From Citrus sinensis (lineage: Eukaryota > Streptophyta > Magnoliopsida > Sapindales > Rutaceae), in the NCBI RefSeq assembly GCF_022201045.2, contig NC_068561.1, forward strand, positions 25,364,501-25,428,500: 64,000 bases of DNA, in the 5' to 3' direction. Under the pieces are notes generated by a model. The model made no database searches, was not told where the DNA came from, and was given only the letters and a program-made list of their open reading frames with translations. Position 1 is the stretch's first letter. Each line of letters begins with the position of its first letter. The position numbers and the translations under genes are program-made. Below are positions 31,861 to 63,863 of this stretch, piece after piece.

Positions 31861-32170
31861 TACCCAAGTAATCAATATCAAACAAACTAAATACTTCAAA
31901 AAAAAAAAAAAAGAACATTCAACTCTCTTAATACCACATCATTGATCATAATCATAATAAAATTTATCTATTGCAAGTTTTACAGTTGAAAAGGGATTAG
32001 CTTTTGTTTTCCCATTTTCTACCTCTTTAAGGCCTGCTTTTCCTTTGCTTTCTGGATATTCAAAACCTTCTTCACAATCTTCTGTTAATTATCCTATAAA
32101 GCATTCAACAACTAAAGAAATCCATCAGAAATTTGCCTTGAATCACTTTTAGCCGATTAAGAGGAACAAA
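31857..32170 (-). pseudogene. Ghost copy of the RPL34 3' end
   Basis: Matches 62474-62790 (the intact eL34 gene) base for base over long stretches, with scattered changes. It covers the 3' UTR, the last exon ([19 protein letters not shown]) and part of intron 3. Against the intact gene the last exon lacks about 18 bp at its start (the region coding for AFLVEE), and the homology ends before exon 3. The recent tandem unit A begins inside it, at the ATCCT at 32091. Not functional. Confidence 0.85.
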
Positions 32171-32215
32171 TGCTATGGTATATAAATGTATATGCGCACC
32201 ATTTTTTATGTATCA

Positions 32216-33090
32216 GGGGTATTATCATTTTACCGTTAAAGTTACTCGGACATATTATGGCAGTACCAAGATTTGCTAAAAAGTGTATTTTACCACAAAA
32301 CGTTTGCGCCGTTATCAATTTACCACCCTTTCGTTAAAAAAATAAAAAATTTATTGATGTTTTGCTGATGTCATAAAGACATTAAAGACATTTCTTTTAA
32401 ATCCAAAACACTGCATTGCAAGTGTAAAATAAACAATAAAACAAAGTAAAAAAGTTCAAGGGAAATAATTAAAGAATTAGAAAATTGATAACCCTAAAAT
32501 TGGCCCCTCTCTCTCATTAATTTTTTTCCTTAATTAAATTGTTATTGTTTTTAATTGTGATTAATATTTGAATTTTATAGATTACAATATTAATTTTGAA
32601 GCATAATTTTTTAATTTTTTTTTTGTTGTTTGTTGTAATTTTGCATATTGTTCATTATTTTTATTAATTAGAATTTTCAGTTGTTTTCTAAATCTTATTA
32701 ATTGTTATTGTTATTGTAAATTGTTATCATTTTTAGTTGTGATTAATACTTGAATTTCATAGGTTATAATATTAATTTTGAAACATAAATTTTTTATTGA
32801 TTGTTTTCTTTGCCATTTATCATAGTTCTGCATATTATTCATTATCTTTCATTAATTACTTTTTTTAGTTGTTTTTTAAATCTTGTTTTTGTTCTTTTCA
32901 AATGGTAAAATTGTCTTTTATTCTCCTGGGGTAAAATCGACTTTTAACTCATTTTATGTTAAACATTAACGTTTTCTTAACGGAAATGTGATAAATTGAT
33001 AACAATACAAATATTTATTAGTAAAATGTAATTTTCAACAAAATATGATACTGACATAATATATCATAATAATTTTAGTGGTAAAATCCC
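32216..33090. mobile_element. Long-TIR DNA element, unit A copy (about 875 bp)
   Basis: The left end (GGGGTATTATCATTTTACCG and on) and the reverse complement of the right end (GGGATTTTACCACTAAAATT and on) align over about 120 bp as imperfect terminal inverted repeats. Shared blocks include CATATTATGGCAGTA versus ATATTATGTCAGTAT and GTTATCAATTTA followed by CGTTAA. The core contains two diverged direct copies of a unit of about 180 bp (about 32525-32700 and 32701-32886). No coding capacity. Long TIRs suggest a Mutator-like non-autonomous element, but a target-site duplication was not clear. Confidence 0.65.
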
Positions 33091-34067
33091 TCTTTGTTGA
33101 AGAGGAGTTTGGAAGCAACAAAGGCACCAAACAATTTGATGCATGCCCTGGACAAACAATTTTGAGTGTACTCAGGGAGATACTTAAGACTTATTGCAAA
33201 GAGTCTTCGGCAACATTAGTAGTGCTTCATCATACATTGCATCATCTGACTAGTGACCACAAATAATCTCGACTCAAGATCTAAGATGGGGTTTCGAAGA
33301 TACAAGAGACACAAAGTTAAACTCAGATTCTCTGTATATATAGAAATCCTAACAATAAGAAAATTGCAGAAATAGTAACCAATTAGTCATTTCAGCAATG
33401 GCTATGAGCTTTATCAATGAGTCTGATATCAGGGCCGCCAGCTGTGGGATATAATTGCCTGAAAATAAAAGTTCATTGGTCAGAAAACTTTCTTGTTCTG
33501 AAATTCAGTGATCTTAAACCATTTTAATTTGTTAAGTAATTACCTTCCTAGGTTAGAACAATAAGAAAGAATTCAGAGTCCTTGCACCGTGGAAATTCAT
33601 CCATCCAATTAAGAATAAATCTCAAATCATCCTGAGATGCAATATCCCAAGTTCCATAAATATTAATTCTTGAGAAGCTGTCCATTTCGTCCTGGCTAGA
33701 AAGGAGCATGTTCCATGAATGCACCAAAACCAAGTCCAAACCGAGGAACGTGAAATTTCTGATGAAATCAGTTGAGATCATTCGTTAGTCTGCAACGAAT
33801 TTCCAAGATAGACGAATCGTCATTTGTTTAATAAACAAAATACGTCATGGCGTCTTATAATTTTTTTCCAATATTGATAATTGACGCCCGTCCAATTTTG
33901 CACTCCAGAGTAGAAGAAAGTTCACGCTGGTCTTTTTTCTGAGAGAAGGTAAACGTCAAGTCGTACGGTTTTTCATGTGCCCTCAATAATTTAGACCGAG
34001 ATTTATATTTTCATGTGCACACAGAGAATCATGTGCCCTCAATAATTTTTATGACCGAGATTTATAT
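33091..34067. other. Unidentified coding-like relics in unit A
   Basis: A plus-strand frame near 33097-33266 (VEEEFGSNKGTKQFDACPG) and a minus-strand frame at 33548-33781 (INIYGTWDIASQDDLRF) have protein-like composition. The minus one is followed by a possible GTAATT donor. Neither matches a family I recognise. They may be gene fragments carried with the duplication. The diverged dispersed repeat also lies here. Confidence 0.3.
33776..33963 (+). repeat. Diverged dispersed repeat, copy 2
   Basis: Same ordered blocks as 30253-30443 (GATCATTCGTTAGT, CGTCATTTGTTTAATAAA, TACGTCATGGCGTC, TTCACGCTGGTC). Repeated again in unit B at 49468-49655. Confidence 0.6.
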
Positions 34068-34076
34068 TCTATTAAT

Positions 34077-35522
34077 GGACGAAGCTACGGTGCCCCGGGT
34101 GCATGGTACCCTTGTTTTTGGTAAATTACTTTGCAAGCCCTCTTATTTGCTGAAAAGTGAAAAAATTAAAAGTTTTGAAATTTTAATATATAAGTCCAAA
34201 ATATTTCTACTATTTACACTTAAGAGTATATTTCTATTATTTATATTTGAATACTAAACCATAATTGATTATTATGAAATTTTTTAACATTGTCATTTGG
34301 TCATATTATTATTGATAAATTAAAATTTAATTACATATTTAAATTATTTATTATTGATTAAATGAATTTTATATTGTTTCTAAAAATTGTTTAATATGAT
34401 TGATAAATTAATGTATTTGATTATATATTTAAATTATTTATTACATATTAAATTAATATTATATTATTTTCAAAAAAAATTATGCATTAATTTTTTTTTC
34501 AAGTTATTGGCCTTATATTGTCATTAATTTTAATAGTAAATTAGATCACTTGATCAAAATATAAAATTTTAAAATTATCCAAAATTATTTATCAAACTTT
34601 TGATCATTTTGTTTTTTTGAAAAACAATAGAGATGTCAATGTTAAAAGCCAAATAGAATACATCCATGCTGTTGAAGCAAGTTTTGCGTTAGATCTAATG
34701 GGCAACTCATATATGGATAAAATATGGGGTAACATGCACCAAGTGAACGGTAGCTGGACCTTTTTTTTAAATCACACTACTTCATAGACCAAAGAATCAA
34801 TAGTAGGACTTTTGTCGATCAAAAAATCTACTTTTAAAATATGATGGTTTTAAACTTTTAATTAAAACTATTTTATTAGGTTAGAGTTTATGAAAAAAAG
34901 GAAACAAAAATAGAGGATAGAGTTCATGGGTGCTAAACTGCTAATTATGAATAAAGAAAGAACATAAATAAAGAAGATAATAGTATCAAAATAAAAACAT
35001 ATTTAATTAAATATACCTTACGAATTACGCAACTTGTTCATTAATAATATTATTAGAAACATTTAATTTAGGCATATGCATGTTCGTTATGGTCATATAT
35101 TATTATTGTTAACAAATTAATATTTTTTATCAGGTATTATTTTTTAATTGACATATTCAAATAATTATTGTATATTAAATAGATATTATGTTAACAAAAT
35201 ATTTTTTAAGGCGTGTTAATTTTTCGTGCATTTTAAAATTTATACATGAGATTACATTATTATCCATACATTATACTCATGCTAATAGTCAAACTAGGTC
35301 AATAGATTTAATTGTAAAAAAAATTGAAACAATCTGGACATATATGTCAACATTTAGAAACTTTTACCTTTTTTAATTTTTCAGAAAACATCAGGGATGA
35401 CAATGTTAATAACCATGCAAACCCATCTGCACGGCCATGCAACTCTTTGGTTAGATTTAATCATTAAATCACTAAATGACAAAATAGGGGTACCAAACAC
35501 CAGTTGCAAAGTAGCAGGACCC
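34077..35522. mobile_element. Mutator-like non-autonomous element, present only in unit A
   Basis: A 1446-bp insertion flanked by TCTATTAAT (34068-34076 and 35523-35531). Unit B has a single TCTATTAAT at the same place, so the empty site is seen directly. The ends are imperfect TIRs of about 40 bp: GCTACGGTGCCCCGGGTGCA on the left and, inverted, GCTACTTTGCAACTGGTGTT on the right, both then reading TGGTACCC. A 9-bp target duplication is the hallmark of Mutator/MULE transposition. A second, similar right end occurs internally (about 34613-34760), so the element is compound. No transposase is encoded. Confidence 0.85.
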
Positions 35523-35531
35523 TCTATTAAT

Positions 35532-37369
35532 AACAGACATCTGAAGCTTTCTATTGAAATATCATATGTTTTAAAATTCTAAATATTGAATTTATTATGG
35601 ACTTTCGAAGTTGGTACACCGTTCTTGGAAAATTACGCTTTTCTCCAATCTTTCCAATTTGGATGATTTTTGTTATTAGTAAAGAATCAATTAAAATTTA
35701 TGAAACTTTTATTATGCATTTATAAACTGTTTATTTATCATGTGTTTAATTTCGGAATTATTATGTAGTAGATTAATTATGAAAATTCAGTAAGTAGGGT
35801 TACTGCAATTTATGGAATCATTATCCAGAATTGATGGGTCCAAAATATGATATGTTTTAAGCATGTTTTTAATTTAAAATCAAGTGAAATTTTTATCAAA
35901 AGTTCCTTTACATGTCTAGTATGTGCATATTTAGTTTCATGAGTTTAGGGCTTGTATAATAAATACAAATTTTGAAATTTGCGTTTGCAATCCTGAAACT
36001 ATTTTCCAGAATTGAAAGATCACATTACTAATCAATTTTTATTATGTTTAAATGGTCATGAAATTTTTGCTAGGTGTTATTAACTTGTTTCACTATTTTT
36101 TGATTTTTATAATTAAAGTTACGAATTTTTGGGTCAGATGACCACAAGTCTAAATTTTTCTAGACAAGTTTTGGATACATGAAACGAAAATTTATTTTAA
36201 ATATTTTTTGTTATAAAATAAATCTCTTACTTTTATCTCTGAGTCTTTGTTATCTTTCCTGACATAATTTAAAATGGCATGATTTTTAGAGTTTTATTTA
36301 AATATTTATGAAATTTCAAATTGTTACTATGTAGTATTAAATACTGAAAAGACTTTTTTGTCCGCCTTAAAATTAAATGATTTTTGAATAAATTTACAAC
36401 TCTTTCAATTATTAGGTACTTTCATAAGAAATCTCACCTGTTAAAATAGAATCTTTGCAAGGTTTTATAATTCTTGGAGTGACATATTATTAAATTAATT
36501 TCAAAATGTATAGGGTGGTTAGAATTTTAATCGTTTTGTCAGTTTGGTATTTTCATATCTAAGAAGGTTGATGTATTGAAGAGTGAATTCGTGCATAATA
36601 TTTATTAGATGTATATATATGTAATTATGTATGAAAAGATTTCATATGAATTGGAATTTATGGTTTTTAAAGCAATTTTACCATTATAGTTTATGACAAT
36701 AAGTTATATTTTGGTTAAAAGTTTATTTAAAATGTTTTCCAAAAATTGTTTTAATAATGACTTTAAAATACTTATCTTTTCATAAATTATTTCTTGTAAA
36801 AATATTTGTAAAGCTTTGCTAGTTAAATGTCTTATAAAAGCATTTTATTGATATATTAGTTGATTGATTGATATTGAAAGACTAAAAAATGTTTTCATGG
36901 TCTTGGCTCATTTTCTATAGTTACCGTTATTGAGATTACAAAATGGCTAATTGTATTGTGAACACCTATTAAAAGAGAGGGACTCAAATGATATTATCAG
37001 TTCGGTTCGAATTTTTTAAAATTTAATTCGAAAATCGAACAAAAAAATAAACCCAAAAAAACGAACCGAACCGATTTTTTTCGGTTCCGGTTTGATTTTG
37101 CCCACCACTAGGTATTAGGATATTGTGTGAGGGTATTTATTTCCATTAAGATTAAGTCTTCAAAAATCTTAATCAATCCCCTGAGAATAGAACAGAAACT
37201 TTAAGTTCCGACTCTGAAACAGCGAAGGCTGACGCAAAGCAAAATAACACCAAACAAAAAGCACAATTCATCAATCCCTAAATTCCCTCTCTTATAATCC
37301 CCTTTTTCTGCATATGCCCATTACGTGATTTTATCTATTTCTGATTCTCCTTCTGGGTTTTCTTCACTG
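35532..37369. other. AT-rich upstream region of the F-box gene, unit A
   Basis: No coding sequence seen. A hAT-like terminus lies at 36999-37110 (listed separately). The last 200 bases are CT-rich with a TATAAT-like motif near 37290 and probably hold the F-box promoter and first untranslated exon. Confidence 0.5.
36999..37110. mobile_element. hAT-like element terminus, unit A
   Basis: CGGTTCG/GAACCGAACCG repeats followed by TTTTGCCCACCACTA, the inverse of the TAGTGGTGGGCAAAA terminus seen in plant hAT elements. The other end was not located. Repeated in unit B at 51236-51347. Confidence 0.4.
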
Positions 37370-37827
37370 GTAAGCGTCTCTCTAGATCCCAACCCATTTA
37401 GTCTTTTTGTATACGAAGCTCTGTTTGATTGGAAGCTTCGATTTTTAGTTTCTTTTTGATGATTTATTAATCTGATTTCGTGTTTGCATGATAACAAGTT
37501 ATAATCTTTTACTTTAATTTGATGTCAAGGATTGAAATATATGATTGATTGTTTTTTGTGTATCGGTTTTGCTATTAGGACATAGTGATTATTATATTTT
37601 AAATATAATCATTTAAATTTTATTTAACCATTTATTATTTAATAGATAAAAATAAATTTGTAATTTTATTTAATAATCTATTGTTTACCAATATTATATC
37701 TTCTATATAAAATTGACTTATTAATACCCGCACACATGCAAACTATGTTATTTCTTAATTTAATGGCTAGATTTTTGAAAAATATTCCTCAACAAATGAT
37801 AGTATCAGTATGCATTGCATTTTGCAG
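37370..37827 (+). other. Predicted 5' UTR intron of F-box gene A
   Basis: Donor GGTAAGCG at 37369-37376 after a CT-rich leader; acceptor TTTTGCAG ending at 37827, just 27 bases upstream of the ATG. The intervening sequence is T-rich as expected of an intron. Inferred from splice signals only; the same sites exist in unit B (51607-52064). Confidence 0.55.
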
Positions 37828-37854
37828 ATATATTAGAAGCAAGGGCGGAAATCA

Positions 37855-39045
37855 ATGGCAGGGTTTAGTGATCTTCCTGAAGAATTGGTGTTCAAGATTC
37901 TTGTATTACTGCCTGTAGACTCGCTGTTGTGTTCCAAATGCGTACAAAAGTCATGGTATTCTCTCATTACGAACTCTAGATTCGTAGTTAAGCATCTCCG
38001 CAACCAGATACGTAACAAGAACAGTTGTGCTCTTGTCATTTCACGGCCCATTTCATTTGATATTTCAGAAGCAAATGGCTTGTTCTTCCACTTCTGTGAT
38101 TGTAATCACATTTTTACTGTTGGTAAGATTATTGAATATCGGTGGTACGAGGATAAACCAGATTATAAACTCGTGGGTCATTGCCATGGCATTGTATGTT
38201 TCGCTTTGCTTTCTGGTAGAGTTGTTTTGGCTAACCCAGCTATTAGAGAATTCAGACACCTCCGTGAACACTGTTACCACTCTTTTCGCTACTGGATGGG
38301 TTGTGTTGGCTTTGGTTACGATGTCAAATCCAATGATTACAAAGTTGTACGAATATTGTGTATTTCGGATGGCTCTGGTCTTTGTCATTTAAAGGTCGAG
38401 GTGTACACCTTGAGTGCAGATTGCTGGAGGGAACTAGCCGCAAACATAGACTTTTTAGGAGCTGGGACTCGTTTTCTAAAGGACAATTTTGAATGTCAAT
38501 ACTTCAGAGGAGCTTGTTATTGGATTTCGTGGAATAAGTCGGTTGGGATTAATTATAATAATCTGGTTAATGGGGATTTTATTTTTTCTTTTGACATGAG
38601 TGATGAGGTCTTTCAAAAGTTACCAGTGCCAAATATTCCTAATGAGATTGATCAGGAATTTTCAAAGCTTACAGTTTTGAATGAATCTCTTGCCTTTGTT
38701 TTGCGTGATAAGTACAGAAAATCGTATGAGATCCAGATATGGGTCATGGATGAATTTGGAGCCAATGAAATCTGGAAAAAATTATTTACCACTGAACCCT
38801 TTTGCGAAATCAAGAGACCATTATCATTTTGTGAAAGGGGTGAGCTTATCATGGATGACTACTATAGAGAAGCATGTTCCTACAACCTTGGCACCAAAGA
38901 AATCAAAAAGCTTCCTGTTCTAGCGTGTACCCTGAAAATTCAAGATAAATTTGGCACTTCGTTGTTTGGTTTTCGGCTGCTTTATGTAGTAAATTACATG
39001 AGCAGTCTAGTTTCAGTCAGAGGAGGACATAAGCTCATAACCTAG
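37855..39045 (+). CDS. F-box/FBA protein, unit A copy
   Basis: One coding exon, 396 residues. The N-terminal F-box spans residues 1-45 (LPEELVFKILVLLPVDSLL, CVQKSW), which binds SKP1 in an SCF E3 ubiquitin ligase. It is followed by an FBA_1-type substrate-binding region: LVGHCHGIVCFAL, VLANPAIREFRHL, FGYDVKSNDYKVVRI, CYWISWN, and a C-terminal CSYNLGTKEIKKL plus NYMSSLVSVRGG. This is the CPR1/CPR30-like architecture, whose members target proteins (including immune receptors in Arabidopsis) for degradation; the target here is unknown. The start is chosen at the ATG preceding the F-box, within 30 bases of a likely UTR-intron acceptor. Identical in sequence to the unit B protein. Confidence 0.92.
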   Translation: MAGFSDLPEELVFKILVLLPVDSLLCSKCVQKSWYSLITNSRFVVKHLRNQIRNKNSCALVISRPISFDISEANGLFFHFCDCNHIFTVGKIIEYRWYEDKPDYKLVGHCHGIVCFALLSGRVVLANPAIREFRHLREHCYHSFRYWMGCVGFGYDVKSNDYKVVRILCISDGSGLCHLKVEVYTLSADCWRELAANIDFLGAGTRFLKDNFECQYFRGACYWISWNKSVGINYNNLVNGDFIFSFDMSDEVFQKLPVPNIPNEIDQEFSKLTVLNESLAFVLRDKYRKSYEIQIWVMDEFGANEIWKKLFTTEPFCEIKRPLSFCERGELIMDDYYREACSYNLGTKEIKKLPVLACTLKIQDKFGTSLFGFRLLYVVNYMSSLVSVRGGHKLIT

Positions 39046-39966
39046 GAGGGATGGAAATAAGCTTGACATAGGACGTCATAACTCATAACTTGATGAATGA
39101 AACTATGCCTCAGCTGACTTGGAGAAGTGTCTAATATATTTGGGCCAAGTATTAGATTAGTTTTCTTATCATCTAATGATATTTTAATAGAAGTCTTTTG
39201 TCAGTTATTTCTCTTCTTGATTGCCCTCTTGCTTAAAGCTTACTTTATTTGGCTTTTTCAGCAAGTAGCTGTTTGCAGTTTATAAACTTCAATGAATTGC
39301 TTGTGGTTAAGTCGAGAACAGGCTTGTATTTTTCGACCCTTACCCAAGATTTGGCTTAGTGTTAGACAATCTTTCTTATCATTTGTCAATTTGATGCTTC
39401 TAGAATGCCTCCATGTTTAATGCTTTTATTTAATTTTAACAGATGAATTACAATGAATCATGTAAATATGAGTAGATATCTGTTCCTCACGGAAGATGAG
39501 GATTGGAGTAGTGATAGGGTATAAATTTAGCACCCTGAAAGTTCTAAATTTCTTGCCACTCATGGCTGGGGATTATTTACAGTTTTTCCTGAACATTATA
39601 TGAGCCAGCCAAGTTTATCCATTGACATGGAAGATTATGCTTCTGTTATAATTGCATGTGAACTATCTGTTACCGCAGGGATTGGATCATGCTTTGAATT
39701 AACTCATTGAATTCTGACTGTTTGTTTATCGCTGCTGTATTATCTTGTGAACTTGATTATTGATATTTAATAAGGGTCTTGAAACATTTCACGGCTAATT
39801 TGAGACATGTCCGGTAGATTTGAAATCTTTTCCATTAGAATAAAGTTGTGTCGGATGCTTCTCATATTTACAACTATAAGCACGTGAAGAATTTCCACGT
39901 TGCTTAGTTTGCGTAGCTCCGTTTAGCTTGGCTTTTCAAATAGAGCTTATTTAGATAGAGATTTTG

Positions 39967-40151
39967 TCCACGATCTGTAATGCTGACAGTGTACTTGAGC
40001 AAGATCAATGAATCCTCTAATGTATAAGAGACTCAAAAGTAAAATAATTTCTACAGAAAATTGTGCAGTGAACTTTTATCTTTGAGATATACTAATTAAT
40101 TTCTCTATCTGTCAAACTATTTTGTTTTATTGTGATGTATTTTCTATCATC
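39967..40151 (+). repeat. 185-bp direct repeat, left copy, unit A
   Basis: Nearly identical to 41359-41542 (begins TCCACGATCTGTAATGCTGA, ends GTATTTTCTATCATC). The two copies enclose about 1.2 kb. The right copy ends near the 3' end of the ubiquitin-hydrolase-like gene. Confidence 0.9.
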
Positions 40152-41358
40152 TATTGATGAATATTGCTAGATACAATACCCTGATTGAATTACCGACCGG
40201 GTCACCGGGAGTACAAGTGACACTATGTGATATAAACAATTGTTTTAAACGAAATGATTTATTGAACACATGGTTATATGTTCAAATGATTTTTGGCCAG
40301 CAATTGAATGAAGGTTTTATTGTTAAATGAAAAATGATTGTATATTGAAAATAATTATTACAATATGACTTAATTTATTATGTGTTTTGCCGTACATATG
40401 TAATAGAATATAAAATGATTACTTTTTTTTTTAATAATTTATGGTACTTTATAATTATTATTATATAATTGTTTGTCAATATGTTTAACGATAATTATAA
40501 TTGTTCACTATGATGTAGTATCAATTTATACTGGATATATGGTTTCAAATTACTTAATTGTTTTTAGCGTCTAAAAGATTTAAATTCTCATTGTTAAAGA
40601 TCTAAGTGTTTCAATATATAGTTATTATTTAGTAGATAAATATAGGATGATGTTATATATGGGTTTATTGACGGCTACCCCTCGTCTTTAATATTTTACA
40701 CATTGAGTTTTTAGATGGATGTTTTTGTTGGAGGCTTCAATATGTTGTGTTAGGCTCTTTGGATGAGCGAATTCTAATATAGTTAATAAGCGAAGATTTT
40801 TCTGAAATTCAGTCATGGGTCGGATGTCAAGTTCAGATTATGGAACCCCCTAAGTTACATGCATGTAACTTAACATTAGCCTCAGATTATTGTTTTTGTT
40901 TATATTGTTTTTGAGGTTTAAGAATGATCGAAAGGAATATTTCATAACATCTCGGTTCCGAAAGGCTTCGGGGAGCCGGGGTGTTACACTTTAATTATCC
41001 TGCATCGTGGGAGATTTTCCTAATGACTGATCCCTTTCTTGAAGCAGTCAGAAACTGAGCAGAGACAACTCCAATATGAACTGAAATGCTGATGATAAGT
41101 TCCTAAAGCAAATTCATGATTTCACTGTTAGTTTTGAAGTAGATATTATCCAGCTCTTTTCATGAAAAATATGATAAGAAATGTAAAGATAACAAACTAG
41201 AATTGGAAGAAACAAGCATTTACCTCTGGTCGCCCTTCGAGTTCTAAACAGAACAAAAGGTAAAAGAAAAATCCGACTGCATGAAGCTGGGAATTCGAAA
41301 TAATGACAGTTTAACTGGGTGGGTTAACAGTTGTATGACAAGCCACCCACATCTTTTA

Positions 41359-41542
41359 TCCATGATCTGTAATGCTGACAGTGTACTTGAGCAAGATCAA
41401 TGAATCCTCTAATGTATAAGAGGCTCAAAATGAAATAATTTCTACAGAAAATTGTGCAGTGAACTTTTATCTTTGAGATATACTAATTAATTTCTCTACT
41501 TGCCAAACTATTTTGTTTTATTGTGATGTATTTTCTACCATC
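41359..41542 (+). repeat. 185-bp direct repeat, right copy, unit A
   Basis: Partner of 39967-40151 with a handful of substitutions and small indels. A TG...CA core can be drawn (41368-41540), but no target duplication or tRNA primer site supports an LTR interpretation. Confidence 0.9.
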
Positions 41543-41618
41543 AATAAGAAGAGACCAAAAAAAGGAGAAAGAAAAATCCTAGATCTTTAATTGCTAATCG
41601 GATCATGATCCAGCGCGC

Positions 41619-44600
41619 TCAGTATGTGGCGCTGTTGCAAACATAAAACAGAATCTTCGGTAGTAGGCTTCTTGCTTTGCAGGTGGAAACAACATCAATC
41701 CAAGAACCAGTGACCTGTAAATGCACATAAAATTTCGATTACACAAAGACTCAAGGAAAGAAATAAAAGAAATTAATAAATTTCGCAACCCCTTCAGAAT
41801 TTACCCCAACACTATTGGTGTCTTGATGCTGTTTATATTGCTTATCGTCACCATTGTAAAAAAAACAGAAGGACTATTGACGATCCCTAGAAAAGCAAAC
41901 CTGGAAAATCAAAGACGAAACTTGTAATTGTACCTTGAGTAAGATAGGTTCAATTTTAAAGCTCAAGGAGTTTCAAGCACTTGGAAATTTACCATTGAAA
42001 GGAGGAAGTATGAGCAATCATTGATATCATTGATCCCTTCATATAATTTCTTTAGATTCACCTTATTATGAAGAATATTCCAGGTTTTTGATATATTTTC
42101 AGAACTCTCATCATCTCTCGGCCAACTTATAACTGAAAATTCAAGCCATAAATAATTAAGATTACTACATTATTCATCATATGAAAATTTTGAATGCTTT
42201 TTCTAAGAGAATCGGGAGGACACCAGTTGCGAAGACTTTTGGAGTACGCAGAAGTTCATGGGTGATTCGGATACTTCGTCGGTTGCAGTATTCACAATTC
42301 AATCGTCCGAACATGACCGCCCGCTCGAAAAGCTCGACAAAAGACTCTCGATTGTACAGATACTGAGTTAAAAGAACAATGTTCAAACTAGCACATACAA
42401 AGACTAAACTTATATATATATATGTACGGGAACTTATGTGAATGAACAATTGCAATTTAACCAACCTGCAGCTTTGTGAGAGAGGATGCATCTAGAGAGA
42501 GAAAAAGGGAAGAATACTTCTGATGCCTAGATTCTTTACGACAGATTCTGGCGTCACATTTTATATGATCTAAACGATCCATTCCAAATCTTCTGTGCAC
42601 CCAACACTCAGAATCTAAGCAATCCCAATTGCCCTTGTACAGGTCGTCTGGAACTATATCGTGATTACCTGTATAAAATGCCTCATGAAGAGATCTCAAG
42701 ATTATCACAAGGAATTCAGAAGCATCCATCACTTGTCCCTGGAAAACAGGCATTCGATTGAGTGACAATAAATAGATGTACAGGAATGAACAAACAAAGA
42801 GAGAATAAAGAAAAGCATTTGCTTATCTTCTCACAATCAAGTTCTGCAATTCCATGGTGGTGAAAATTATTCAAAATTGAAAAGTGGTCTCCATACAAAC
42901 CTCTATGGGGTCGTTCCGATCACGATCGTAAGTGCTCAAAGCAATTCTTAATTCAGTAGGATCAACAGCTTCTCCCTGATGATTGGCACCACAGATTTTA
43001 AAAAAGGCACAGACAATGCAGGGGTCTCCAATGTGATTATGATGTGAATGGCATAACTTCATGCACTCATCTTGGAAGTCTCCTAGTTGCCATAGGGACT
43101 GCACAGCACATGACAGATAAGATTTCAGGAAAAGAAAATGGAGAGGGAAGTGACCATCATTTCAGTAGAACAGTTGTGGAATGATAACCTGTAGAAGCAT
43201 AATTAGAAAGCTATCCGCAGCTTCTTTTCCTAGTCCAGTTCCGAGAACATTGACTTCATCTGCAGATTGCCTCTGATACTCCAAATTTTGTTCAGGTGAT
43301 CTATCGTCAATCTCAATCGGTTGTTGCAGGTCATCAGCTCTTTCACCCATCTCAGTATTTGGATTTTCTCTGAGTACAATTGATAAATTTTGTTCTGTGC
43401 CTATGATCTTTCTCCTTTTTTGTACCTTTAGTATACTGTCATGAACCAGCTGTTCTAGTCGTGCCTACAGAGGACGGAATTTCAGTAAGGAAAGACGTAA
43501 CAAAAAACATCAAGAAGGAAAGGAAAGAACTGTTGAGAAGACTGAGAGATTTCACTATAAACCTTCATGAATGACTTCAATATGGGCAACACAATTAATC
43601 CATAGTCACAAGCACATAGCTCTCCAAGCTGTAGGTTATGTAGCTTCATGATGCCAATACTTTCCTTTATCCTTTCATATAAACCAGCAATCTGAGGGAT
43701 TGAATATAGTCAGACAACAAGGAAACAAAACAGCTGAATGATTAAGGAATCACTTGGCTGAAGAAATGAAAGCCAATGGTACTCACATTCGCTTGCAGCT
43801 GCTTTCTCCAAAATGATATTTTTTCACTTACACAATCATCTGACGGATTCAAGCTTTCGTGAATTCTGGGCTTTTCTTCAAACTGGTAAGCAGTCACAGG
43901 GTCTGTTTCCAGAAGATTAAAAATAAATTCTAGTTCAAACTGATCACTCGTGGCATTACCATTCCCCTCTTCTAGCACTTCTTGCCGTCCTCTAAGCAGG
44001 GATGCAAAAGCTTCCTTCATAGACTCTGGATTTTTTTCCCTTCGCTTAGTCTCGTCACCACATATACCATCAACTGCTTCTACTACTTTCTGTTTTATCA
44101 GATACTCGTGTCTTTCCTCACATAGTCTCAGAAAATTTGAACGTTCCGTTTTAAAGAACAGAAACAACTCAGCTTTCAGTACTTCATTAGATTCTCTTAG
44201 GCTTGTCCATAATCTAAATGCTTCCTCAACGTCATGGCCCTCATATAACCATGAAACAAAATCATCAGAAATATTCTGAATCCCATCCAAACTCAGACAG
44301 GAGGAGTCCTCGCTAAGAACAAGCTCCTCTTTGATACCAAAAGTCTGAGAACCAGCAAGTTGTTCTTCCATTGAATTATCCATACTAGGAATTCTACATA
44401 AAGCACCAGAAACATTCTGCAACCTACCAAGGATTCTTGTAAGCTGTGAAGATTCCAAAAAGAAAACTAGCCTAAGTGAATTTAGGCCTATATTCCTCAA
44501 CTGTGAATCAGAAAATCTAGTTTTAAGGATGCATATGGCATCGTTTATCACCCCAACAATATCAGTTTGCGTAAGATATTTATATCTGAGAAGCATTTGA

Positions 44601-47690: not shown

Positions 47691-47906
47691 GAAACAATGC
47701 CTCTAATTTAATTTCATATTATAGATTGCTTTGAAAGAACAAACTGTTGTTTGTAAATCTTTTACTTCTTTCTCCATTACCATCCTATAAAGCATTCAAC
47801 AACTAAAGAAATCCATCAGAAATTTGCCTTGAATCACTTTTAGCCGATTAAGAGGAACAAATGCTATGGTATATAAATGTATATGCGCACCATTTTTTAT
47901 GTATCA

Positions 47907-51606: not shown

Positions 51607-52064
51607 GTAAGCGTCTCTCTAGATCCCAACCCATTTAGTCTTTTTGTATACGAAGCTCTGTTTGATTGGAAGCTTCGATTTTTAGTTTCTTTTTGATGAT
51701 TTATTAATCTGATTTCGTGTTTGCATGATAACAAGTTATAATCTTTTACTTTAATTTGATGTCAAGGATTGAAATATATGATTGATTGTTTTTTGTGTAT
51801 CGGTTTTGCTATTAGGACATAGTGATTATTATATTTTAAATATAATCATTTAAATTTTATTTAACCATTTATTATTTAATAGATAAAAATAAATTTGTAA
51901 TTTTATTTAATAATCTATTGTTTACCAATATTATATCTTCTATATAAAATTGACTTATTAATACCCGCACACATGCAAACTATGTTATTTCTTAATTTAA
52001 TGGCTAGATTTTTGAAAAATATTCCTCAACAAATGATAGTATCAGTATGCATTGCATTTTGCAG
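51607..52064 (+). other. Predicted 5' UTR intron of F-box gene B
   Basis: Same donor and acceptor as in unit A (37370-37827), with no difference seen. Confidence 0.55.
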
Positions 52065-52091
52065 ATATATTAGAAGCAAGGGCGGAAATCA

Positions 52092-53282
52092 ATGGCAGGG
52101 TTTAGTGATCTTCCTGAAGAATTGGTGTTCAAGATTCTTGTATTACTGCCTGTAGACTCGCTGTTGTGTTCCAAATGCGTACAAAAGTCATGGTATTCTC
52201 TCATTACGAACTCTAGATTCGTAGTTAAGCATCTCCGCAACCAGATACGTAACAAGAACAGTTGTGCTCTTGTCATTTCACGGCCCATTTCATTTGATAT
52301 TTCAGAAGCAAATGGCTTGTTCTTCCACTTCTGTGATTGTAATCACATTTTTACTGTTGGTAAGATTATTGAATATCGGTGGTACGAGGATAAACCAGAT
52401 TATAAACTCGTGGGTCATTGCCATGGCATTGTATGTTTCGCTTTGCTTTCTGGTAGAGTTGTTTTGGCTAACCCAGCTATTAGAGAATTCAGACACCTCC
52501 GTGAACACTGTTACCACTCTTTTCGCTACTGGATGGGTTGTGTTGGCTTTGGTTACGATGTCAAATCCAATGATTACAAAGTTGTACGAATATTGTGTAT
52601 TTCGGATGGCTCTGGTCTTTGTCATTTAAAGGTCGAGGTGTACACCTTGAGTGCAGATTGCTGGAGGGAACTAGCCGCAAACATAGACTTTTTAGGAGCT
52701 GGGACTCGTTTTCTAAAGGACAATTTTGAATGTCAATACTTCAGAGGAGCTTGTTATTGGATTTCGTGGAATAAGTCGGTTGGGATTAATTATAATAATC
52801 TGGTTAATGGGGATTTTATTTTTTCTTTTGACATGAGTGATGAGGTCTTTCAAAAGTTACCAGTGCCAAATATTCCTAATGAGATTGATCAGGAATTTTC
52901 AAAGCTTACAGTTTTGAATGAATCTCTTGCCTTTGTTTTGCGTGATAAGTACAGAAAATCGTATGAGATCCAGATATGGGTCATGGATGAATTTGGAGCC
53001 AATGAAATCTGGAAAAAATTATTTACCACTGAACCCTTTTGCGAAATCAAGAGACCATTATCATTTTGTGAAAGGGGTGAGCTTATCATGGATGACTACT
53101 ATAGAGAAGCATGTTCCTACAACCTTGGCACCAAAGAAATCAAAAAGCTTCCTGTTCTAGCGTGTACCCTGAAAATTCAAGATAAATTTGGCACTTCGTT
53201 GTTTGGTTTTCGGCTGCTTTATGTAGTAAATTACATGAGCAGTCTAGTTTCAGTCAGAGGAGGACATAAGCTCATAACCTAG
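52092..53282 (+). CDS. F-box/FBA protein, unit B copy
   Basis: 396 residues, identical to the product of 37855-39045: F-box at residues 1-45, then FBA_1-type substrate region ending in the CSYNLGTKEIKKL and YMSSLVSVRGG blocks. The upstream 2.3 kb, including the predicted UTR intron, is also unchanged, so both copies should have the same promoter out to the insertion site of the Mutator-like element 2.3 kb upstream. The two genes can differ in expression only if that insertion or local chromatin matters. Role inferred as substrate receptor of an SCF ubiquitin ligase; target unknown. Confidence 0.92.
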   Translation: MAGFSDLPEELVFKILVLLPVDSLLCSKCVQKSWYSLITNSRFVVKHLRNQIRNKNSCALVISRPISFDISEANGLFFHFCDCNHIFTVGKIIEYRWYEDKPDYKLVGHCHGIVCFALLSGRVVLANPAIREFRHLREHCYHSFRYWMGCVGFGYDVKSNDYKVVRILCISDGSGLCHLKVEVYTLSADCWRELAANIDFLGAGTRFLKDNFECQYFRGACYWISWNKSVGINYNNLVNGDFIFSFDMSDEVFQKLPVPNIPNEIDQEFSKLTVLNESLAFVLRDKYRKSYEIQIWVMDEFGANEIWKKLFTTEPFCEIKRPLSFCERGELIMDDYYREACSYNLGTKEIKKLPVLACTLKIQDKFGTSLFGFRLLYVVNYMSSLVSVRGGHKLIT

Positions 53283-54203
53283 GAGGGATGGAAATAAGCT
53301 TGACATAGGACGTCATAACTCATAACTTGATGAATGAAACTATGCCTCAGCTGACTTGGAGAAGTGTCTAATATATTTGGGCCAAGTATTAGATTAGTTT
53401 TCTTATCATCTAATGATATTTTAATAGAAGTCTTTTGTCAGTTATTTCTCTTCTTGATTGCCCTCTTGCTTAAAGCTTACTTTATTTGGCTTTTTCAGCA
53501 AGTAGCTGTTTGCAGTTTATAAACTTCAATGAATTGCTTGTGGTTAAGTCGAGAACAGGCTTGTATTTTTCGACCCTTACCCAAGATTTGGCTTAGTGTT
53601 AGACAATCTTTCTTATCATTTGTCAATTTGATGCTTCTAGAATGCCTCCATGTTTAATGCTTTTATTTAATTTTAACAGATGAATTACAATGAATCATGT
53701 AAATATGAGTAGATATCTGTTCCTCACGGAAGATGAGGATTGGAGTAGTGATAGGGTATAAATTTAGCACCCTGAAAGTTCTAAATTTCTTGCCACTCAT
53801 GGCTGGGGATTATTTACAGTTTTTCCTGAACATTATATGAGCCAGCCAAGTTTATCCATTGACATGGAAGATTATGCTTCTGTTATAATTGCATGTGAAC
53901 TATCTGTTACCGCAGGGATTGGATCATGCTTTGAATTAACTCATTGAATTCTGACTGTTTGTTTATCGCTGCTGTATTATCTTGTGAACTTGATTATTGA
54001 TATTTAATAAGGGTCTTGAAACATTTCACGGCTAATTTGAGACATGTCCGGTAGATTTGAAATCTTTTCCATTAGAATAAAGTTGTGTCGGATGCTTCTC
54101 ATATTTACAACTATAAGCACGTGAAGAATTTCCACGTTGCTTAGTTTGCGTAGCTCCGTTTAGCTTGGCTTTTCAAATAGAGCTTATTTAGATAGAGATT
54201 TTG

Positions 54204-54388
54204 TCCACGATCTGTAATGCTGACAGTGTACTTGAGCAAGATCAATGAATCCTCTAATGTATAAGAGACTCAAAAGTAAAATAATTTCTACAGAAAATTG
54301 TGCAGTGAACTTTTATCTTTGAGATATACTAATTAATTTCTCTATCTGTCAAACTATTTTGTTTTATTGTGATGTATTTTCTATCATC
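54204..54388 (+). repeat. 185-bp direct repeat, left copy, unit B
   Basis: Counterpart of 39967-40151; pairs with 55596-55779. Confidence 0.9.
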
Positions 54389-55595
54389 TATTGATGAATA
54401 TTGCTAGATACAATACCCTGATTGAATTACCGACCGGGTCACCGGGAGTACAAGTGACACTATGTGATATAAACAATTGTTTTAAACGAAATGATTTATT
54501 GAACACATGGTTATATGTTCAAATGATTTTTGGCCAGCAATTGAATGAAGGTTTTATTGTTAAATGAAAAATGATTGTATATTGAAAATAATTATTACAA
54601 TATGACTTAATTTATTATGTGTTTTGCCGTACATATGTAATAGAATATAAAATGATTACTTTTTTTTTTAATAATTTATGGTACTTTATAATTATTATTA
54701 TATAATTGTTTGTCAATATGTTTAACGATAATTATAATTGTTCACTATGATGTAGTATCAATTTATACTGGATATATGGTTTCAAATTACTTAATTGTTT
54801 TTAGCGTCTAAAAGATTTAAATTCTCATTGTTAAAGATCTAAGTGTTTCAATATATAGTTATTATTTAGTAGATAAATATAGGATGATGTTATATATGGG
54901 TTTATTGACGGCTACCCCTCGTCTTTAATATTTTACACATTGAGTTTTTAGATGGATGTTTTTGTTGGAGGCTTCAATATGTTGTGTTAGGCTCTTTGGA
55001 TGAGCGAATTCTAATATAGTTAATAAGCGAAGATTTTTCTGAAATTCAGTCATGGGTCGGATGTCAAGTTCAGATTATGGAACCCCCTAAGTTACATGCA
55101 TGTAACTTAACATTAGCCTCAGATTATTGTTTTTGTTTATATTGTTTTTGAGGTTTAAGAATGATCGAAAGGAATATTTCATAACATCTCGGTTCCGAAA
55201 GGCTTCGGGGAGCCGGGGTGTTACACTTTAATTATCCTGCATCGTGGGAGATTTTCCTAATGACTGATCCCTTTCTTGAAGCAGTCAGAAACTGAGCAGA
55301 GACAACTCCAATATGAACTGAAATGCTGATGATAAGTTCCTAAAGCAAATTCATGATTTCACTGTTAGTTTTGAAGTAGATATTATCCAGCTCTTTTCAT
55401 GAAAAATATGATAAGAAATGTAAAGATAACAAACTAGAATTGGAAGAAACAAGCATTTACCTCTGGTCGCCCTTCGAGTTCTAAACAGAACAAAAGGTAA
55501 AAGAAAAATCCGACTGCATGAAGCTGGGAATTCGAAATAATGACAGTTTAACTGGGTGGGTTAACAGTTGTATGACAAGCCACCCACATCTTTTA

Positions 55596-55779
55596 TCCAT
55601 GATCTGTAATGCTGACAGTGTACTTGAGCAAGATCAATGAATCCTCTAATGTATAAGAGGCTCAAAATGAAATAATTTCTACAGAAAATTGTGCAGTGAA
55701 CTTTTATCTTTGAGATATACTAATTAATTTCTCTACTTGCCAAACTATTTTGTTTTATTGTGATGTATTTTCTACCATC
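55596..55779 (+). repeat. 185-bp direct repeat, right copy, unit B
   Basis: Counterpart of 41359-41542. Confidence 0.9.
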
Positions 55780-55855
55780 AATAAGAAGAGACCAAAAAAA
55801 GGAGAAAGAAAAATCCTAGATCTTTAATTGCTAATCGGATCATGATCCAGCGCGC

Positions 55856-58800
55856 TCAGTATGTGGCGCTGTTGCAAACATAAAACAGAATCTTCGGTAG
55901 TAGGCTTCTTGCTTTGCAGGTGGAAACAACATCAATCCAAGAACCAGTGACCTGTAAATGCACATAAAATTTCGATTACACAAAGACTCAAGGAAAGAAA
56001 TAAAAGAAATTAATAAATTTCGCAACCCCTTCAGAATTTACCCCAACACTATTGGTGTCTTGATGCTGTTTATATTGCTTATCGTCACCATTGTAAAAAA
56101 AACAGAAGGACTATTGACGATCCCTAGAAAAGCAAACCTGGAAAATCAAAGACGAAACTTGTAATTGTACCTTGAGTAAGATAGGTTCAATTTTAAAGCT
56201 CAAGGAGTTTCAAGCACTTGGAAATTTACCATTGAAAGGAGGAAGTATGAGCAATCATTGATATCATTGATCCCTTCATATAATTTCTTTAGATTCACCT
56301 TATTATGAAGAATATTCCAGGTTTTTGATATATTTTCAGAACTCTCATCATCTCTCGGCCAACTTATAACTGAAAATTCAAGCCATAAATAATTAAGATT
56401 ACTACATTATTCATCATATGAAAATTTTGAATGCTTTTTCTAAGAGAATCGGGAGGACACCAGTTGCGAAGACTTTTGGAGTACGCAGAAGTTCATGGGT
56501 GATTCGGATACTTCGTCGGTTGCAGTATTCACAATTCAATCGTCCGAACATGACCGCCCGCTCGAAAAGCTCGACAAAAGACTCTCGATTGTACAGATAC
56601 TGAGTTAAAAGAACAATGTTCAAACTAGCACATACAAAGACTAAACTTATATATATATATGTACGGGAACTTATGTGAATGAACAATTGCAATTTAACCA
56701 ACCTGCAGCTTTGTGAGAGAGGATGCATCTAGAGAGAGAAAAAGGGAAGAATACTTCTGATGCCTAGATTCTTTACGACAGATTCTGGCGTCACATTTTA
56801 TATGATCTAAACGATCCATTCCAAATCTTCTGTGCACCCAACACTCAGAATCTAAGCAATCCCAATTGCCCTTGTACAGGTCGTCTGGAACTATATCGTG
56901 ATTACCTGTATAAAATGCCTCATGAAGAGATCTCAAGATTATCACAAGGAATTCAGAAGCATCCATCACTTGTCCCTGGAAAACAGGCATTCGATTGAGT
57001 GACAATAAATAGATGTACAGGAATGAACAAACAAAGAGAGAATAAAGAAAAGCATTTGCTTATCTTCTCACAATCAAGTTCTGCAATTCCATGGTGGTGA
57101 AAATTATTCAAAATTGAAAAGTGGTCTCCATACAAACCTCTATGGGGTCGTTCCGATCACGATCGTAAGTGCTCAAAGCAATTCTTAATTCAGTAGGATC
57201 AACAGCTTCTCCCTGATGATTGGCACCACAGATTTTAAAAAAGGCACAGACAATGCAGGGGTCTCCAATGTGATTATGATGTGAATGGCATAACTTCATG
57301 CACTCATCTTGGAAGTCTCCTAGTTGCCATAGGGACTGCACAGCACATGACAGATAAGATTTCAGGAAAAGAAAATGGAGAGGGAAGTGACCATCATTTC
57401 AGTAGAACAGTTGTGGAATGATAACCTGTAGAAGCATAATTAGAAAGCTATCCGCAGCTTCTTTTCCTAGTCCAGTTCCGAGAACATTGACTTCATCTGC
57501 AGATTGCCTCTGATACTCCAAATTTTGTTCAGGTGATCTATCGTCAATCTCAATCGGTTGTTGCAGGTCATCAGCTCTTTCACCCATCTCAGTATTTGGA
57601 TTTTCTCTGAGTACAATTGATAAATTTTGTTCTGTGCCTATGATCTTTCTCCTTTTTTGTACCTTTAGTATACTGTCATGAACCAGCTGTTCTAGTCGTG
57701 CCTACAGAGGACGGAATTTCAGTAAGGAAAGACGTAACAAAAAACATCAAGAAGGAAAGGAAAGAACTGTTGAGAAGACTGAGAGATTTCACTATAAACC
57801 TTCATGAATGACTTCAATATGGGCAACACAATTAATCCATAGTCACAAGCACATAGCTCTCCAAGCTGTAGGTTATGTAGCTTCATGATGCCAATACTTT
57901 CCTTTATCCTTTCATATAAACCAGCAATCTGAGGGATTGAATATAGTCAGACAACAAGGAAACAAAACAGCTGAATGATTAAGGAATCACTTGGCTGAAG
58001 AAATGAAAGCCAATGGTACTCACATTCGCTTGCAGCTGCTTTCTCCAAAATGATATTTTTTCACTTACACAATCATCTGACGGATTCAAGCTTTCGTGAA
58101 TTCTGGGCTTTTCTTCAAACTGGTAAGCAGTCACAGGGTCTGTTTCCAGAAGATTAAAAATAAATTCTAGTTCAAACTGATCACTCGTGGCATTACCATT
58201 CCCCTCTTCTAGCACTTCTTGCCGTCCTCTAAGCAGGGATGCAAAAGCTTCCTTCATAGACTCTGGATTTTTTTCCCTTCGCTTAGTCTCGTCACCACAT
58301 ATACCATCAACTGCTTCTACTACTTTCTGTTTTATCAGATACTCGTGTCTTTCCTCACATAGTCTCAGAAAATTTGAACGTTCCGTTTTAAAGAACAGAA
58401 ACAACTCAGCTTTCAGTACTTCATTAGATTCTCTTAGGCTTGTCCATAATCTAAATGCTTCCTCAACGTCATGGCCCTCATATAACCATGAAACAAAATC
58501 ATCAGAAATATTCTGAATCCCATCCAAACTCAGACAGGAGGAGTCCTCGCTAAGAACAAGCTCCTCTTTGATACCAAAAGTCTGAGAACCAGCAAGTTGT
58601 TCTTCCATTGAATTATCCATACTAGGAATTCTACATAAAGCACCAGAAACATTCTGCAACCTACCAAGGATTCTTGTAAGCTGTGAAGATTCCAAAAAGA
58701 AAACTAGCCTAAGTGAATTTAGGCCTATATTCCTCAACTGTGAATCAGAAAATCTAGTTTTAAGGATGCATATGGCATCGTTTATCACCCCAACAATATC

Positions 58801-59874
58801 AGTTTGCGTAAGATATTTATATCTGAGAAGCATTTGAAGCGTACCACAGAGTCTCTCTAGAAGCGCGAGGCGTTTTTTATCATCACTTAATGGCCAATTC
58901 TGATCTTCTAGGCCCTTTCTTGCTGCTTCAGTAGTATCAACGGGCTTCCACCCACCTTTCGTAATCAACTCAACTGAATCGTTATCAACCTTTATCGGAA
59001 GGATTTTTAGAACATGATGTTGAAATTTCAAGTCATGAGAAACACGAAGGTGCCCCATGCAAGAATGCCATTCATTGAAAATCGTGCAACATTCCCCACA
59101 CTCCCAGAACCTCCATGTCTTCCGTTCCTTGGCAAATTTTATAGCTTCCAAAAAAAGATCTTTCTGCGTACCGTAAATCAGAACTCGTTCAAGCTCTTCG
59201 ATTCTTACTTGAAAAAAGTTTGATTTTGCCTCGGCACTCATTTCAGTATTCCAGAAAGATTTTGCTGTATCCAAACAGACCAAAAAAATTTTTGGCGAAT
59301 ACCTCAAACTCCTGAGCTGGTTTTGATTACTCTGTACTCTTTCTGTGGCTGCATTTGCACTTTCGTTGGCTCTCCGCTCTGAACTGATTGCAACCCACCT
59401 TTTCTTCCTCTCACATTTGTTTATCAAATCCCTCAATTCTTGTTTTGTTTTCTCAATTTCCCAATCTTGGCTTGGATCTTTGAAAAAAAAAGAAGATATT
59501 TCATCCGTCGGATTCTTGATTTCTAATGCCCTGTTGCATTCCTTGATCACCTCGTCATATTCTTGGTCGGAAGTCGCCAAATCATAGAGTGTGCAGGCGC
59601 AAAAGTGAGCTAGAATGGTGGAGCTTGGGCACAGAATCGATGCTTGACGAGCCGAGATGGCTGCTTCGTCTATGTGATGTCGAACTGCACCACGATCTCT
59701 ACTTCGCATAGCAAGTTGGTAGTGAATAAATGCTTGTGCGTGGTGAAAAGGAGCACAGTTCTTTTTTAATAGATTCAAGGATCCACTGTAGTCTTCTTGT
59801 TCATATGCTGCAATGGCAGCTGTAACATCATTGGACGGTGTTTGCGGTTGTTTGCTTGGACCTTTCTTGTTCAT
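55856..59874 (-). CDS. DUF627/DUF629 ubiquitin hydrolase-related protein, likely inactive, unit B
   Basis: Same eight-exon model as in unit A shifted by 14237: 59874-58024, 57928-57800, 57701-57426, 57335-57138, 56975-56703, 56599-56461, 56369-56230, 55951-55856; 1033 residues. The only coding difference seen is at 58956, which turns Arg307 (CGT) of copy A into Gly (GGT) just after the C2H2-like finger. The Cys-box Ser745 and the eroded His-box exon are shared, so loss of catalysis predates the duplication. The frame of both copies is otherwise intact. That suggests either selection for a non-catalytic role or too little time since duplication for decay to show. Confidence 0.8.
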
Positions 59875-61392
59875 TTTGATGGTGGATTTCTTGTTTTTCT
59901 TGACATAGAATTAGCGCTTATGGCTGTTCTTTGTTTTCGTTACTTCTGGTTTATGAAAAAGGGAGCTTGTCTTGCTTAAGGCGGGAAAATAACGGTGCAG
60001 GGCAAGTTGGGAAATCAAAAGTATCTTTTCTGATTTACGGTTAGTTCGTTGGAGAAGCTTTTTAACGCCTCTGTAAATTTCTTATAATGCTCCTTTCAAA
60101 TATTATTTTTTAAAATACCTCCAGTTTAATTTACAACATATAAACACATATATTACAATTAATCATCATCTTATAAAATTTTTATGTTAAAAATGTTTTT
60201 TTTTTAATCTTCTATTTATAAATTACATACAAATCCTAAAATCTCAGTTTTTTTTTTTGTTATAAAGTTTCTATTTTCATAATTTTAAATTCTTATAATT
60301 TTCTCAAAAATTTTTTTTATTAAAATTAAAATATAAACATAAATTATGAAATGGGGTGGGTGTAAAATTTTTTTTTAGAAGAATAATTCATTTAAGTGTT
60401 TATTTAAATTTTTATTTTAAAAAATAAGAAATGAAATCAATTGTATTTGATTATTTAGATAGTTTCAAGTAAAAATAAATTTTAAAAAGAGTTTTGAGGG
60501 CGTGTCAAAAGGCCTACCCATTCTTCATTTGAAATGAAAGCCCGTAATAAAAAATAAATAAAAAAGAAATGAAAGGCCAAATTTCTAGAGCCCACTAATT
60601 TATACAAAACCAGCTTGCAAGGCCCACGAAACAATCGTATTCAAGAGCGCATTCGCATTCCACTGATGAATTTCCTCAACAGTTTCTTTGGAATCTAATT
60701 GGGGCGGCATGTCAATGGTCATACAATAAAACATCTACATTATTGATCACCCAATTAAGATTATACTCAAACAAATGATTAATCAGGGAATTGTTGAAGA
60801 TGGAGGAGTTTCTAAGAAGCAGTTGGTTTTTGTGCCAAATTAATTTCTTGTCGTTTCACTATTTCTCAACTAGAGCACCTGTTTTCTTTTGGTAGAGTTA
60901 AAATAAAAATGAACGCTCTTCTTGATTAATGTTAAACAATGGCTAGTCATTTTCATGTTGAAGAATGAATTAAACTTATCATTTATTACATGTTTGGTCC
61001 AAAGAAATAAGAAAAAAAAAAAAGAGGAAGGAAAATGGAAAGGAGATGGAGGGGTAGAGAATGAAAAAAAATAAATAGTAATCTCAATTTAATTATTTAA
61101 TTTGACATAAAATCATTTCTTACTCCTTTATTTCTTAAATCAAATGGTGCCATCCAAGCATCCATACTCTTGCACATTTTGCATCTACAGAAGGCATAAT
61201 AAACAAATCATCAGTTGACTTAAAAATTTAAAAATGCATACAAAATATTTTTTTATTGAGTGTGTATATATCTATATATTTATTTAGATTTCTATCTTAA
61301 TGTAATTGGCAAATGGCAATAATAATAATAATAATAATAATCCTTTTAATAATATAATTGTGCGAAATTAATTAAAGCACGCGTTTGAGATT
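59875..61392. other. Upstream region of the ubiquitin-hydrolase-like gene, unit B
   Basis: Counterpart of 45638-47150 with an A-run two bases longer (near 61011), one substitution in the following A-rich tract, and one extra AAT unit in the microsatellite near 61319-61342. No gene seen. Confidence 0.5.
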
Positions 61393-61932
61393 GGGTTTCC
61401 CAACAACCACTTGCTGCCCAAGTCTCTCAATCTATTGGATTATCGGGTGAAAGAATTAACTAAATCCTATGGACTTGAGTATGTTCATGTCGGTGAACGT
61501 AAAAAAGATCACGATGTTGCTTTGCATACTGTTACTTTTTTAAAAGCCATTGTTTCTTCTTCGCGCAGTACTCTCGATGAAATGGTAATTGATGATGGGT
61601 TTGCTATAATGGCTTCAAGCGGTAAAGTGCTGACCCAGTTCGTTGAGATGTGAGTCATGGATGGCTCTGATGTCAATGGAACTTGGAAAAAAATTGTTAA
61701 CGATTAGACCCAATTTGAAATCTCACAGGTCAATAGCATTTTGGAAAAATGATGAGCTTGTTGTGGGAGCCAGGGATGGAATTCGAAGATGCTACAACCT
61801 TGGCATCCAAGAAATCAGAGGTTTCATATTCATAAGGATCTAAGATTACATTTTGCTGAAATTTACATGAGTAGCGTAGTTTCACTCAGAGGCGGAAATA
61901 AGCTTGACTCGGAAGATTACAGCTTAACAAAG
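61393..61932 (+). pseudogene. Chimeric relic: unidentified fragment joined to F-box/FBA 3' end, unit B
   Basis: Same as 47151-47690: an unidentified open stretch (61393-61653), then a frameshifted FBA C-terminal remnant with CYNLGIQEI and YMSSVVSLRGGNKLD blocks. The unit B border lies about 90 bases downstream. Confidence 0.7.
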
Positions 61933-62028
61933 GAAACAATGCCTCTAATTTAATTTCATATTATAGATTGCTTTGAAAGAACAAACTGTTGTTTGTAAAT
62001 CTTTTACTTCTTTCTCCATTACCATCCT

Positions 62029-62629: not shown

Positions 62630-63863
<1,234 letters not shown>

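Follow-up and report, generated by a model that had tools for sequence, protein, structure and literature searches.

A window of 64,000 nucleotides of the sweet orange (Citrus sinensis) genome, positions 25,364,501 to 25,428,500 of contig NC_068561.1 in assembly GCF_022201045.2, contains two adjacent, near-identical units in direct repeat, A on the left and B on the right, each carrying an F-box gene and a predicted ubiquitin-hydrolase-like gene. These units probably represent a real and recent tandem duplication of 14.2 kb, made in a single event by a join at a five-base microhomology, with an insertion and some base changes acquired by A afterwards. We infer, rather than read directly, that there was one event, by what pathway the join was made, and that the duplication is present in the plant. 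The features of the locus are summarized in Table 1, and all positions below are those of the window unless a contig is named.

Table 1. Features of the duplicated locus, in window coordinates. MULE, Mutator-like element; TSD, target-site duplication; SNP, single-nucleotide polymorphism.
Feature	Position	Strand	Details
Unit A of tandem duplication	32091-47781	+	15,691 bp including insertion; window self-comparison and global alignment
Unit B of tandem duplication	47782-62023	+	14,242 bp; window self-comparison and global alignment
ATCCT, left border	32091-32095	+	context ...AATT/ATCCT/ATAAAG
ATCCT, A/B junction	47782-47786	+	context ...TACC/ATCCT/ATAAAG
ATCCT, right border	62024-62028	+	context ...TACC/ATCCT/TTTTTG
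R1, likely relic of ribosomal L34e gene 3' end	31866-32174	+	left border lies inside R1
R2, direct partner of R1, likely L34e gene 3' end (coding strand -)	62488-62801	+	464 bp past right border
MULE-like insertion, A only	34077-35522	+	1,446 bp; TSD TCTATTAAT at 34068-34076 and 35523-35531, single in B at 49760-49768
Old dispersed element, inverted ends, both units	32215-33087 (A), 47906-48779 (B)	+	used to polarise two SNPs
F-box gene, copy A	37855-39045	+	396 aa, single open frame; F-box and FBA_1/FBA_3 domains
F-box gene, copy B	52092-53282	+	same protein sequence as copy A; matched over 52092-53279, extended by the stop codon
Ubiquitin-hydrolase-like gene, copy A (predicted)	41622-45637	-	DUF627/DUF629 exon 45637-43742, then more exons; exon matches
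Ubiquitin-hydrolase-like gene, copy B (predicted)	55859-59874	-	exon matches
Missense SNP, hydrolase-like copy A	44719	-	residue 307 Arg versus Gly in copy B (58956); read as derived
F-box gene relic (C-terminal FBA part), just inside right border	47392-47598 (A), 61634-61840 (B)	+	BLASTP

Comparison of the window with itself places the two units head to tail, as an earlier reading made from the sequence only had proposed, and global alignment confirms their near-identity over 14.2 kb. The units differ by four SNPs, three small indels and one stretch of 1,455 bp that is found in A only. In BLAST, with the 5-bp overlaps counted in, 32091-47786 of A aligns to 47782-62028 of B, in pieces of 12,269 columns at 99.94% and 1,987 columns at 99.85% identity. 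The difference in length between the units is due to a transposon-like insertion in A, without which they measure 14,236 bp (A) and 14,242 bp (B).

The run common to both outer borders is exactly 5 bp, ATCCT, and the A/B junction is simple, without filler bases. The sequence-only reading held that three borders share ATCCT. The sequence is indeed present at all three, but only two of them are independent, the middle one being their product. When 200,000 random border pairs were drawn in a modelled single-copy locus, 5 bp or more were common to 0.90% of them, and to 0.79% of border pairs placed within 300 bp of the actual borders. Such a match is expected of microhomology joins but would not be if contig ends had been joined arbitrarily. 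The proposed 5-bp join is supported, and the locus has the adjacent, direct, near-identical units with a few base pairs common to the outer borders that are expected of a tandem duplication of this type.

An arrangement of the same form would result if the two haplotypes of a single-copy locus had been placed in series during assembly. Citrus genomes are often described as heterozygous, and a transposon polymorphism with a few SNPs is what two alleles could show. On the other side, there is no N across the 164 kb surrounding the locus, so that the junction is gapless, the borders share a match that few random joins would have, and a central stretch of 9.2 kb is identical between the units. Assemblers usually collapse long identical stretches. 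Moreover A and B differ by 0.03%, against an overall sharing of 96.2% reported for the sweet orange haplotypes (PMC9832951), so an artefact would probably need a stretch that is nearly identical by descent. We therefore consider such a misassembly unlikely. A 201-bp sequence spanning the junction, used as a query against the genome (299.7 Mb in 11 contigs), gave at least four matches, and every listed one lies inside the window.

The duplication probably arose from a single join reaching back over about 14.2 kb, in which the right border, as a broken DNA end or as a nascent strand, annealed via ATCCT to the left border of a sister copy. The pathway might be a template switch in replication repair, of the type termed microhomology-mediated break-induced replication (MMBIR) or fork stalling and template switching (FoSTeS). 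Microhomology end-joining of two sister chromatids would be nearly equivalent, and the sequence cannot separate the two. Following duplication, A would have gained the insertion, as well as base changes at three or more sites. The effect would be a second dose of the F-box gene and of the hydrolase-like gene, each with its own upstream DNA.

The sequence-only reading also stated that the join was not recombination between long repeats, but overlooked a pair of direct repeats of about 310 bp, R1 and R2, that are 81% identical and lie 14.9 kb apart in the modelled single-copy locus. Five pairs of direct repeats were found in that locus with its flanks (148 kb), taking repeats of at least 80 bp with E 1e-5 and more than 1 kb apart, and only R1/R2 lies near both borders. 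R2 is likely the 3' end of a minus-strand gene for ribosomal protein L34e, and R1 likely an old relic. The frame just upstream of R2 matches PF01199 (L34e) at 62757-62957 with 9.9e-9, and 63569-63847 matches more weakly, below the cut-off; a Pfam search gave no L34e match to the frame inside R2 itself. The last L34e exon within R2 was read by eye against what we take to be the end of L34e. R1 carries a 19-bp deletion, with an end 4 bp to the left of the duplication border, and R2 has ATCCT at the aligned place, 62721.

Unequal crossing-over in register between R1 and R2 (non-allelic homologous recombination) should generate a junction that is an R2/R1 hybrid. There is no R2 sequence at the A/B junction, and the join departs by about 0.7 kb from the register of the repeats, the DNA from 62024 to 62721 being missing. 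Plain unequal crossing-over therefore does not account for the join, and that part of the earlier claim stands. Two steps could reach the same point, if crossing-over between the repeats were followed by a deletion of about 0.7 kb from the right-border ATCCT to the ATCCT of the hybrid repeat. The repeats are direct and 81% identical and bracket the unit, and given the aligned ATCCT in R2 both routes yield the same junction. Yet this costs one more event and has left no trace of R2 at the junction, and a divergence of 19% over about 310 bp makes a poor substrate for homologous recombination. A two-step origin is thus very unlikely. Under the single-event duplication that we prefer, the old repeats R1 and R2 may have favoured an encounter of the two sites without making the join, although this is conjecture. 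We would give only a small chance to a broader scheme, in which R1/R2, as old and diverged gene relics, set a misregister of about 15 kb between sister copies and a break was sealed through ATCCT at a distance of about 0.7 kb, making the locus a duplication hotspot where the F-box/hydrolase pair has been gained repeatedly in the species and the middles of the units have been homogenised by gene conversion.

The A-only stretch of 1,455 bp at 34068 comprises a repetitive element of 1,446 bp and one copy of a 9-bp TSD. B has the empty site, with the 9-mer TCTATTAAT occurring once and intact. Excision from B instead of insertion into A was considered and rejected, as B has one intact target and A two flanking copies. 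A filled site in A and an empty one in B indicate that the element entered A after the duplication, or entered one allele if A and B are alleles. We classify the insertion as MULE-like on sequence features. Its 9-bp TSD agrees with the 9-11 bp expected of Mutator-like elements, and any inverted repeats at its ends would be degenerate, the two ends agreeing at 24 of their outermost 38 bases (32/65 when extended). No transposase was seen in the 1.4-kb insertion. The element resembles CitMule in its 9-bp TSD and perhaps in short degenerate terminal inverted repeats; CitMule is described as being about 6.9 kb long and predicted to encode a transposase (PMC4334395).

The family of this insertion is dispersed, with at least 52 matches in the genome when 40 of 401 candidates were scored; those listed fall only on C1-C9 of the 11 contigs, in keeping with the nine chromosomes of citrus. 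The closest copy among the matches listed, on C3, differs at five of the 1,446 bases. In a simple test of the flanks of six other full-length copies, two had perfect 9-bp repeats, one had a repeat matching at 8/9 positions and three had none. At C6:7.393-7.402 Mb (L023/L029) a 99% MULE-like copy is seemingly split, with the same open frame in both inner flanks, which looks like a long terminal repeat. This copy (C6:7.39 Mb) was rejected as an autonomous MULE because one repeated open frame adjoins each of its halves, as in a copy split by another element.

Might a transposon have made the duplication itself, by reversed-ends transposition or by an element jumping at the borders? Tandem duplications are generated by reversed-ends transposition of maize Ac (PMC3744419), and the unit contains the MULE-like insertion and another, dispersed element. 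But an element end was seen at neither border, the dispersed element beginning 124 bp inside, and transposon-made borders were rejected on that ground. The MULE-like element, which B lacks, sits 2 kb into A between the copies of an intact TSD of its own; it is therefore later than the duplication and was discarded as its cause. We regard a transposon-made duplication as extremely improbable.

The four SNPs are at 32278, 32822, 44719 and 46828, and the small indels at 32390 (1 bp), 46774 (2 bp, in an A-run) and 47078 (3 bp, in an AAT repeat). B has nine simple repeats above threshold, two of which have changed between the units. Polarity could be assigned to three of the SNPs. The first two lie in an old dispersed element, for which 40 of 232 genome candidates were scored, the matches listed falling only on C1-C9 of the 11 contigs. 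Among 18 copies fetched, all 18 have G at 32822; 17 cover 32278, of which 15 have G and two have A. The majority of G indicates that unit A is derived at both sites. At 44719 the hydrolase-like protein has Gly in nine out of nine homologues (P0058-P0066), four of which probably represent splice variants from a single gene, so that Arg in unit A is derived. As judged from these comparisons, each of the three polarised SNPs is derived in A. The state of the 1-bp indel at 32390 varies across the family of the dispersed element.

Four SNPs in some 14,235 sites correspond to a divergence of 2.8e-4 (Poisson 95% 0.8e-4 to 7.2e-4), and to an age of about 20,000 generations (5,500-51,000) at a per-site rate of 7e-9 in each generation, an Arabidopsis rate that serves as a yardstick only. 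The duplication had been called very young, and with four SNPs it is recent. However, the differences are clustered toward the ends of the units, so that gene conversion may have refreshed the identical middle. Such clustering would occur by chance in 0.2% of cases for all eight differences, 1.3% for the six that remain without the two repeat-run indels and 2.6% for the four SNPs. Such conversion is a possibility that we hold weakly; it would mean that the age may be too low. The estimate would be too high if the units derive from two homologues.

Several points weigh against a single microhomology-driven duplication. The locus is known here from one genome assembly alone. The 5-bp match is short, and about one in 110 random joins would have it. 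Random placement puts R1/R2 near both borders (within 500 bp of the repeats) in only 0.47% of cases for a unit of 14,242 bp and 0.09% for units of 5-30 kb, a coincidence that was spotted post hoc. This suggests an involvement of the repeats that a pure microhomology model does not need. Lastly, the three polarised SNPs and the insertion are all in A, where equal ageing of the units would give four one-sided changes in 1/8 of cases, and SNP 46828 and the three small indels are unpolarised.

Domain, protein and exon matches locate the two copies of each gene, and they support the doubling of the F-box gene and of the predicted hydrolase-like gene that had been read from the sequence alone. The closest sequence to the F-box protein is P0001, at 98%. 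The hydrolase-like protein is 97-98% identical, over ungapped aligned positions, to named proteins of Citrus sinensis and Citrus x changshan-huyou, and P0058 is one residue off copy B. Its relatives P0059 and P0060 have the USP domain PF00443. On the minus strand at about 43.1-43.25 kb, the stretch that would hold the putative catalytic Cys, joined as in P0059, reads DSFLIMLLQSLW. Measured against what we presume to be the motif, the Cys looks to be replaced by Ser, and the predicted enzyme may thus be inactive. Directly downstream of the matched exons of this gene, a sequence of about 193 bp occurs twice in direct orientation, the copies being 95% identical and 1.4 kb apart (39962-40154 and 41354-41545, also in B). 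A tandem array of hydrolase-like genes in sweet orange was considered and rejected, since P0060-P0063, four proteins from an equal-sized contig, were read as splice forms of one gene. Outside the duplication, 19648-19919 is 67% similar to a segment of the hydrolase-like gene (42124-42417, minus strand), without a protein match to P0059 or P0060 at E 1e-4, and is perhaps a relic or a shared element. When the F-box relic was compared by BLASTP with 58 F-box proteins, its match to P0003 reached 3.7e-12; a Pfam search of it gave nothing relevant.

The duplication is of a kind already known in plants, and it leaves knowledge of duplication mechanisms unchanged. In Arabidopsis, four of the six junctions described for tandem duplications of BOR1 and NRAMP1 have 2-6 bp of microhomology (PMC13037888, PMC9116884). 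The BOR1 duplications of Cape Verde are likewise recent and span genes, one being about 38 kb. Two of three junctions on Fogo have 3 and 6 bp of microhomology, and the third has 26 bp of new sequence. In contrast to the citrus locus they are described as read-supported, with several independent events and a tested effect on boron (PMC13037888). The citrus locus, for its part, comes with one assembly and no phenotype, and differs from BOR1 in having diverged repeats near the borders. For NRAMP1 on Fogo, two of three junctions have 2 and 3 bp of microhomology and the third is templated. Unlike the citrus locus with its single assembly, the NRAMP1 duplications are reported to be under selection, and both depth and assemblies confirm them (PMC9116884).

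In sweet orange itself, 170 tandem duplications between haplotypes have been reported, together with one of 5,617 bp in accession T78, and 31 of 40 spontaneous structural variants came from insertion of three MULEs; in the part of that report used here junction microhomology is not mentioned (PMC9832951). A paper on barley lists the same duplication mechanisms (PMC3706897). A limited literature search, which is no proof of absence, found no citrus report joining tandem duplication or structural variation with microhomology.

Fresh tandem duplications expose the join before decay hides it, and so show how copies of genes first arise. This locus adds a citrus case with a readable junction and an inferred order of events, the duplication preceding the transposon and base changes in A. 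Because of the nearby pair of diverged repeats, related accessions could serve to test what role imperfect homology plays. Should the duplication prove real and differ from tree to tree, it would also be a dosage marker for the F-box and hydrolase-like genes.

Elsewhere in the window, 9874-10079 and 11582-11787 form an inverted pair of 206 bp, 97% identical and 1.5 kb apart, and no clear TSD was seen at its ends. An imperfect palindrome of about 150 bp at 5400-5551 is 84% self-complementary and resembles a foldback element or miniature inverted-repeat transposable element. Upstream of the duplication, 27764-29666 contains exons of a protein-kinase gene, with a Pfam kinase match in two of three open frames tested.

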